This document shows, one piece after another, positions 45,093-48,231 of a DNA stretch of 64,000 nt. Positions within the stretch are counted from its first letter, which is position 1, and every line of letters begins with the position of its first letter. The stretch comes from Micromonospora sp. NBC_01699. Lineage in GTDB: Bacteria; Actinomycetota; Actinomycetes; Mycobacteriales; Micromonosporaceae. The position numbers and the translations under genes were made by a program. The notes beneath the pieces are model-generated. The model ran no database searches, was not told the origin of the DNA, and worked only from the letters and a program-made list of their open reading frames with translations. The stretch covers positions 5,890,001-5,954,000 of the forward strand of contig NZ_CP109199.1 in the NCBI RefSeq assembly GCF_036250065.1. Direction: 5' to 3'.

Positions 45093-47948
<2,856 letters not shown>

Positions 47949-48020
47949 GTCGTCTCCTCGCCGCGCTCACCGTTGTGCGTACACGGGCACGTTTCGCATT
48001 TCAGGGCATGCATATCCGGG

Positions 48021-48048
48021 CACAAAAAAGCCCCTCACACAGGAGGGG
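48021..48048 (-). terminator. Intrinsic terminator of the leuS leader (attenuator)
   Basis: On the minus strand CCCCTC, loop CTGTGT, GAGGGG, followed by CTTTTTTG: a 6-bp stem with a six-T run, rare in such GC-rich DNA. It lies between the leader peptide and leuS. Confidence 0.85.
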
Positions 48049-48049
48049 T

Positions 48050-48085
48050 AGCCGTGCTGTCGCGCTCGGTGGCGTCAGCACGGCT
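48050..48085 (-). promoter_or_regulatory. Leader stem-loop overlapping the leader-peptide stop
   Basis: AGCCGTGCTG (48085-48076) and CAGCACGGCT (48059-48050) are perfect 10-bp arms. The first arm covers the last codons and stop of the leader peptide, and the second ends one base before the terminator stem. A ribosome stalled at the Leu codons, about 6 nt upstream, would alter this fold. Confidence 0.75.
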
Positions 48086-48113
48086 CGCTAAGAAGCAGGT
48101 AGGCCCGGGCCAT
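48075..48113 (-). CDS. Leucine leader peptide of leuS
   Basis: A 12-residue ORF, MARAYLLLSEPC, with three consecutive leucine codons (CTG CTT CTT). The two CTT codons are unusual for this genome. It is followed by a stem-loop and an intrinsic terminator, then by leuS about 127 nt from the stop. Attenuators upstream of leuS have been predicted in some Streptomyces; this has the same logic: charged tRNA-Leu lets the ribosome reach the stop and favours termination. A GAGGG lies 15 nt upstream of the ATG. Translation of this peptide is inferred. Confidence 0.78.
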   Translation of the reverse strand: MARAYLLLSEPC

Positions 48114-48231
48114 GCCGCGGAGTCTACGCCCTCACCCGACGGGCTGTCGCGCCCGGTTCCACGGGTCGACGGTACGGGGCCGACCGGTCAGCAGGACCGT
48201 ACGTGTGGTCGGCTTGAGCGTGAGTTCCGGC

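Follow-up and report, generated by a model that had tools for sequence, protein, structure and literature searches.

We propose that leuS, the leucyl-tRNA synthetase gene in the 64,000-nucleotide stretch of Micromonospora sp. NBC_01699 DNA that was analyzed (the window), is preceded by a leucine-responsive, ribosome-mediated transcription attenuator on a leaderless mRNA, in which a stem (P1) probably hinders the terminator by abutting on it; we put the probability of this reading at about 0.7. Leucine-responsive attenuation of leuS in general is highly likely, attenuation with P1 as the stall-dependent element is likely, and abutment as the mode of action of P1 is a tentative suggestion from its placement. 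A leucine leader peptide and attenuator of leuS had been named in the original prediction from this sequence, and the proposal was borne out by the conserved Leu codons, the covarying stems, the conserved terminator and the homology to a Streptomyces leader presented below.

The elements of the leader, all on the minus strand, are listed in Table 1. The leader ORF, MARAYLLLSEPC, has 12 residues and reads ATG GCC CGG GCC TAC CTG CTT CTT AGC GAG CCG TGC TGA. The original prediction had described a 12-residue minus-strand ORF with three consecutive Leu codons, two of them CTT, followed by a perfect 10-bp stem-loop and an intrinsic terminator with six T upstream of leuS; the ORF matches that description letter for letter and the other elements are all present in the sequence, the perfect 10-bp stem (P1) being formed by AGCCGTGCTG and CAGCACGGCT. 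The ORF does not end ahead of P1 but runs into it, with its last codons and stop overlapped by the 5’ arm. CTT was said to be rare and is so, accounting for one Leu codon among the 258 of five window ORFs. The leader ATG lies 165 nt from the leuS GTG. This leuS is the sole full-length match among four in its own genome, and the closest named relatives of its product are from Micromonospora, with 85-89% identity over the N-terminal 149 residues.

Table 1. Elements of the leuS leader and their positions in the window
Feature	Position	Strand	Basis or remark
Weak -35-like hexamer GCGACA	48145..48150	-	By reading; spacer of 18 nt to the -10 element
-10 element TAGACT	48121..48126	-	7 nt 5’ of the leader ATG
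Leader ORF MARAYLLLSEPC	48075..48113	-	TGA stop within the 5’ arm of P1
Regulatory codons CTG CTT CTT	48090..48098	-	Last CTT starts 8 nt ahead of the conserved P1 G
P1 stem, 5’ arm AGCCGTGCTG	48076..48085	-	Reading and covariation
P1 stem, 3’ arm CAGCACGGCT	48050..48059	-	Reading and covariation; terminator 1 nt further on
Intrinsic terminator hairpin CCCCTC-CTGTGT-GAGGGG (6-bp, GC-rich stem)	48031..48048	-	Terminator scan and covariation
U tract, six T, after one C	48024..48029	-	Reading and terminator scan
Conserved TG, 9-10 nt past the terminator stem	48021..48022	-	Possible RNA polymerase pause site (putative function)
leuS Shine-Dalgarno GAGGAG	47954..47959	-	By reading
leuS, leucyl-tRNA synthetase, 951 aa	45093..47948	-	GTG start at 47948

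A sigma-70 promoter scan of the leader region returned no promoter-like site. The spacing of the -10 element predicts that the transcript of the window leader is leaderless, beginning at the ATG. A TAnnnT box is found 6 or 7 nt 5’ of the leader start codon in 127 of 131 leaders, a count for which the script chose, among in-frame start codons, one having such a box, and this spacing agrees with that expected for leaderless mRNA. We searched the window against Rfam, T-box and other families included, without a match at the gathering score; the leader region gave only two sRNA matches, both far under that score, so that the search placed the leader in no known RNA family.

The leader strand (93 nt) folded at -41.2 kcal/mol (z -2.74), a value equalled by 2 of 200 shuffles, and a terminator scan of 1.5 kb had the leader terminator as its sole site. 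The terminator by itself is unremarkable, because 0.6 sites are expected in shuffles of this length. Such numbers, together with the commonness of short ORFs and the fact that leaderless ORFs offer no ribosome-binding site to recognize, are what could be said for a chance ORF beside an ordinary terminator belonging to the divergent region upstream; we give that explanation virtually no weight, as it is already refuted by covariation and by conservation across the family and the class, the latter being the strongest evidence against a chance origin of the leader.

The original prediction had asked for an alignment of related leaders, with absence of the Leu codons or the terminator from relatives to count against it. 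A DNA search with the leader found matches in 262 of the 300 family genomes searched, and a covariance model (R1) built from 61 leaders of that family (alignment A1) found matches in 295 of the 300 and in 41 of 44 genera, with one strong copy (102.5 bits) in the genome of the window itself. Both conserved Leu codons and covarying stems were recovered in the alignment. In all 50 family loci examined, from 45 different genomes, leuS was downstream of the leader. Four of the five genomes without an R1 match (G021, G039, G063 and G162) likewise have no match to the LeuS N-terminus (E 1e-40), and the fifth (G031, locus L128) has kept the promoter-like box and the terminator and lost the Leu codons and P1. 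Another genome (G054), which has a weak R1 match (E 5e-6), carries a locus (L132) with the promoter-like box directly 5’ of the leuS start and no leader. L128 and L132 are natural loss variants.

Beyond the family, R1 matched 166 of 394 genomes of the class, in 72 of 138 genera (E<=0.01), and these matches include at least three ilvB or cimA leaders (G327, G470 and G484) in place of leuS leaders. We fetched 69 class loci, 29 from the class search and 40 chosen for spread over families and second matches; leuS was downstream in 62, and the rest comprised four ilvB loci, two cimA loci and one contig end. Because these loci were retrieved by a model that contains the motifs, motif conservation in the class is partly selected. 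As a control for this circularity, leuS loci of one distant family were taken by a leuS HMM, and 20 of 30 had an R1 match. An independent ORF-and-stem script scanned 29 of the 30, of which 11 were parsed, three were without the LeuS motif and 15 were unparsed though several match R1; the last Leu codon was CTT in 11/11 parsed leaders and, by reading, stood 8 nt ahead of the GCCG core in each.

The leader type also precedes two kinds of leuS, about 60-86% and about 34-43% identical to the N-terminal part of the window LeuS. Both kinds occur with the leader inside one family (L188 as against L181 and L191), and one genome, G506, carries both (L230 and L231; 36% and 71% identity to the window LeuS) with a leader before each. 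Finding one leader ahead of different leuS types, in G506 within a single genome, suggests that it stays with leuS, or moves along with it, when the gene is replaced.

Both helices, P1 and the terminator, are conserved as RNA structures. In A1, aligned with MAFFT, 96.2% of the cells pair, compared to 41-52% in slid controls, and changes on both sides occur in 5 of 15 pairs, a number reached by 33 of 500 shuffles; the covariation score of 0.143 (0.077 in shuffles) was reached by none of the 500. In a class-wide alignment of 100 leaders (A3), 8 of 15 pairs changed on both sides and the score was 0.233 vs 0.112 in shuffles, with 0/500 shuffles as high in either measure; these pair counts lean towards the model because A3, unlike A1, was fitted to it. 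One P1 pair in A3 is CG in 51 leaders, UA in 44 and UG in 5. We also scanned for covariation outside the model, in columns filled in >60% of rows and listing column pairs with >70% standard pairs. Ranks 1-4 are pairs of P1 and the terminator, unmodelled pairs begin at rank five, and in these well-filled columns no unmodelled pairs lie side by side as a helix, so the scan gave no conserved competing helix.

Codons were read at offsets from the conserved P1 G in 134 leaders (L214 and L216 left out). Leu is found at -8 in all 134 (CTT 129, CTC 5), at -11 in 133 and at -14 in 106, with only 2 at -5 and 6 at -17. Read in phase with the -8 codon, the stop is TGA at +7 in 88 leaders and TAG at -2 in 39, together 127/134. 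An offset-free script parsed 136 of 142 distinct leaders (failing on L122, L138, L208, L210, L216 and L243), 131 of them leuS-type, and placed the last Leu codon 8 nt from the first paired base of P1 in 92, 7 nt in 23, 6 nt in 12, and 4, 5, 5 and 9 nt in the remaining four; the distances of 6-7 nt are due for the most part to additional weak pairs at the P1 base. The P1 loop varied from 5 to 55 nt in this parse. Our first leader pattern required CTT as the last Leu codon and matched 82 of 85 loci; these give 74 distinct leaders, of which 61 make up A1. The CTT rule was not made by this pattern, because two of the three loci without a match (L128 and L132) have lost the leader and the third (L146) has CTT with a longer terminator loop.

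The fixed codon and stop positions weigh on two explanations in which leucine supply would matter little. P1 and the terminator might form a tandem terminator that leucine tunes weakly through the reading of the leader, or P1 might aid termination; the two hairpins do stack end to end and clusters of adjacent hairpins have been described as intrinsic terminators (PMC8355165), but neither the Leu codon at -8 in every leader nor the stop at -2 or +7 of P1 in 127-129/134 is explained, and we regard this possibility as quite improbable. Still less probable, and very unlikely in our estimation, is sensing of the peptide itself or ribosome arrest by its LLLSEP motif, with leucine supply not the signal. 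LLL(S/T)EP is frequent in the family, but TAG stands one residue past the last Leu in 39/134 leaders with the RNA letters of P1 unchanged, the residue after the last Leu varies, and the codon itself is kept (CTT in 129/134) though 257 of the 258 Leu codons in the five window ORFs differ. Peptide-specific arrest is disfavored by this geometry of codons and stop.

With P1 allowed anywhere, the gap between P1 and the terminator was -2 to +3 nt in 126/135 leaders, the exceptions being one at +5 and eight outside. Among the outliers, L122, L138 and L210 have the usual P1 with a terminator that is seemingly misplaced, and L149, L162, L172, L213 and L216 have a different longest stem. A further leader, L208, gave no terminator call. 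An earlier parse confined the end of P1 to -4..+5 nt of the terminator, and its gap count of 130/131 is partly built in. In A1, one to three letters separate P1 and the terminator in 61/61 leaders.

These gaps can be set against a textbook attenuator, in which P1 or another helix shares bases with the terminator and only one of the two can form. Seliverstov et al. 2005 (PMC1262725) described the leuS leader of Streptomyces as a classical attenuator built of an antiterminator and a terminator hairpin, and the adjacent hairpins of C. glutamicum ilvBNC are described as competing for one GCC trinucleotide, with support from mutants (PMC11857589). An overlap of 1-2 nt between P1 and the terminator is also possible in 13/135 of our leaders, and 3 more allow pairing between the Leu-codon region and the terminator 3’ arm. 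Against this reading, P1 and the terminator abut without overlap, with gaps of 0 to 3 nt, in 113/135; the four top covarying, mostly pairable column pairs belong to P1 and the terminator and the unmodelled ones form no helix; and placing the ribosome at the Leu codons instead of the stop does not sequester the terminator 5’ arm more, as the folding below indicates, while the trpL and thrL controls do show capture. We consider base sharing of the textbook kind unlikely in these leaders.

Folding in four ribosome states covered 102 of 130 rows in A1 and A2, with the six ilvB and cimA rows left in. The median terminator probability was >0.999 in each state, the lowest single values being 0.04 in the free state and 0.46 with the ribosome at the stop, and the equilibrium folds contain both P1 and the terminator for nearly all 102 leaders in the four states. 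Pairing of the arms was evaluated in 122 leaders with CTN at -8, with the footprint assumed to reach 7 to 12 nt past the A site. Mean sequestration of the terminator 5’ arm was 0.11-0.31 at the Leu codons, 0.29 without a ribosome and 0.37-0.39 at the stop. The P1 3’ arm was paired at 0.97 for a ribosome on the third-last Leu, at 0.97, 0.87 or 0.72 at the last Leu, dropping as the assumed footprint grows, and at 0.66-0.69 at the stop. In the E. coli controls the terminator 5’ arm was held at 0.37 (first Trp), 0.66 (second Trp) and 0.08 (stop) in trpL, at 0.75 (first regulatory codon), 0.60 (last) and 0.16 (stop) in thrL and, weakly, at 0.50 and 0.39 (codons) and 0.25 (stop) in leuL; the pheM control was flat (0.70 vs 0.69), which makes the arm-capture test an imperfect one.

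Any trend of the 5’ arm in the leuS leaders is thus opposite to that in E. coli trpL and thrL, and within these secondary-structure models, capture of the terminator 5’ arm by upstream RNA with a stalled ribosome was not seen in the 122 leaders. Neither ribosome-masked folding, geometry nor covariation, within the limits of secondary-structure models, produced a conserved antiterminator sharing bases with the terminator. Because P1 and the terminator coexist and the 5’ arm is if anything freer at the Leu codons, the computation does not show antitermination directly. The original prediction had spoken of the “full logic” of a ribosome-mediated attenuator; peptide, stem and terminator are indeed in place, but no conserved helix competing with the terminator by shared bases was found.

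Three other pairings were considered as candidates and rejected. The terminator loop varies in the alignment, so its pairing with the P1 3’ arm was set aside. The Leu-codon region and the terminator 3’ arm form the longest stem, in place of P1, in only 3/135 leaders (L162, L172 and L213), where a stalled ribosome would cover it; this alternative stem could act only with the Leu codons free of the ribosome. Long-range pairing of P1 with the conserved TGYCC that follows the U tract would give 3 bp, and the sole column pair listed for it is almost invariant.

From the anatomy, the fixed distances, the covariation and the distribution, all of them read from sequence, we infer the following leucine response. 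RNA polymerase would begin at the leader ATG and produce an mRNA without a 5’ UTR, as shown in S. lividans. With plentiful charged Leu-tRNA, the ribosome would clear CTG CTT CTT and arrive at the stop, beside or within the 5’ arm of P1, where it would mask P1; the terminator would be free to fold and transcription would end. With scarce Leu-tRNA, the ribosome would wait, a Leu codon occupying its A site. When that codon is the last one, the rare CTT, P1 would start 11 nt downstream of the first P-site nucleotide, so that P1 could fold with the stalled ribosome in place, since it begins at the mouth of the mRNA channel. The folded P1, some 0-3 nt away from the terminator base, would then reduce termination and leuS would be transcribed, which is the weak step of the scheme.

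With P1 sharing no bases with the terminator here, P1 may act by abutment: a stiff helix right behind the 5’ strand of the terminator might hinder the last base pairs from zipping inside RNA polymerase. The Leu-to-P1 spacing suggests that the leader is built for a ribosome stalled at the last Leu codon to come up against P1 and leave it closed; one at the stop would lie on P1 itself. A footprint of 12 nt beyond the A site would, in contrast, have the ribosome on the last Leu codon mask part of P1, which speaks against the proposed mechanism. Stem-loops at a spacing like that of P1 hinder A-site tRNA binding, and from the distance P1 itself may slow the arrival of Leu-tRNA. We searched the open-access literature for antitermination by pure abutment and found none, which is weak evidence of absence. 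The related ilvB leader of S. coelicolor also argues against the mechanism, its candidate regulatory codons having been mutated with regulation unaffected (PMC1262725).

Downstream of the terminator stem, TG (then mostly YCC) occurs at offsets 9-10 in 94/107 leuS leaders, with a TG background of 4.8% in the window; 17 of 124 leaders, in which the G run was not recognized, were left out of this count. Only 13/28 cimA leaders have TG at this place. This TG fits the elemental pause consensus G-10 Y-1 G+1.

Leaders of similar build precede other genes. Four ilvB loci matched by the leuS model (L224, L228, L232 and L243) have branched-chain codons and the stem-against-terminator layout. In another genus, 28 of 30 cimA (citramalate synthase) loci have an R1 match upstream, with E up to 0.035; these leaders encode III-type peptides, with ATT at -8 in 26/28 and ATC in 2/28. 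In the genome of the window (G000, contig C1), a leader encoding VTQHVLIIRD (ATT ATT) lies upstream of cimA at 1396769-1398337 (+), with a stem at the TAG stop, an abutting terminator and a weak R1 match (E 0.008; L286:1341-1443). By reading, 11 nt separate its last Ile codon from the stem, and the 8-nt rule is therefore not universal. An isoleucine leader of cimA is apparently unreported, as we found none in the open-access literature. That the leuS, ilvB and cimA leaders of actinobacteria constitute a distinct attenuator architecture, in which one stem does two jobs and shares no base with the terminator, is a doubtful proposition at present.

The distribution highlights the leucine attenuator of leuS as a widespread actinobacterial regulator and not a peculiarity of Streptomyces, and one covariance model finds the leader in many genera of the class, making it a ready search model. 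The near-constant distances (8 nt from Leu to stem, about 0-3 nt from stem to terminator) are the ones that would matter to a ribosome and polymerase moving as a coupled pair. With the usual base-competition switch not visible, the leader raises a mechanistic question, that of base competition versus steric blocking.

Attenuators of leuS were predicted in 2005 for S. coelicolor and S. avermitilis (PMC1262725), and in S. lividans a leaderless LeuL2 peptide, MRAVRLLLSEPR, followed by a hairpin and a U stretch, was found by RNA-seq (PMC8079986). R1, though built only from the family of the window, matches loci encoding MRAVRLLLS(E/G)PR (L202, L203, L206 and L220) with E of about 1e-14 or below; as this is the peptide published for LeuL2, the match argues for common descent with the Streptomyces leader. 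Judged by these matches, the window leader is a homologue of the Streptomyces leuS leader (LeuL2 type) and not a first. The original prediction had correctly mentioned that leuS attenuators were predicted in some Streptomyces, but its suggestion of novelty in this lineage is reduced by the homology to that known element. In the open-access literature searched we found no prior description of a leuS leader in the family of the window, and an earlier mention elsewhere is possible.

The window leader shares with E. coli trpL, thrL and leuL a peptide rich in the regulated amino acid and an intrinsic terminator, and its Leu regulatory codons match a leucyl-tRNA synthetase gene, as in trp-type leaders. 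The regulatory codons of E. coli leuL are four CTA codons, CTA being rare in E. coli. Unlike the leuS leaders, those of E. coli have an antiterminator that captures the 5’ arm of the terminator (clear in trpL and thrL, weak in leuL), and E. coli trp-type leaders have their own Shine-Dalgarno sequence, whereas the window leader is predicted to be leaderless. Mutual exclusion by shared bases, a defining trp-type feature, was tested by folding, geometry and covariation (pheM control flat) and not found; for this reason we file the leader under leuS leaders and not under overlap-type attenuators, and it most likely still works as an attenuator.

Among actinobacterial leaders, the LEU element, a pseudoknot 5’ of leuA (PMC1262725), also has Leu codons and a leucine-related gene but belongs to a different gene, and is set apart here by its published description and not by sequence; leuA leaders of other Actinobacteria were reported by Wolf et al. 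2017 (as cited in PMC8079986), and that of S. lividans is described as being without a typical terminator (PMC8079986). The C. glutamicum ilvBNC leader, like other actinobacterial ilvB leaders, has a leaderless peptide with antiterminator and terminator base to base (PMC11857589). It is the nearest published case to abutment that we found, the adjacent hairpins sharing only a GCC trinucleotide, and it differs from the window leader, which shares no bases, by that GCC and by a proposed anti-antiterminator. As in the LeuL2 type, the window leader has a short ORF with consecutive Leu codons directly 5’ of leuS and a hairpin and U-run terminator in between. The Streptomyces leuS leaders have the same gene, the 12-residue pattern (MRAVRLLLSEPR), P1 and the terminator; they belong to another family, and their P1 core is GCCGCGC where that of the window is GCCGTGC, the stem being preserved through compensatory change.
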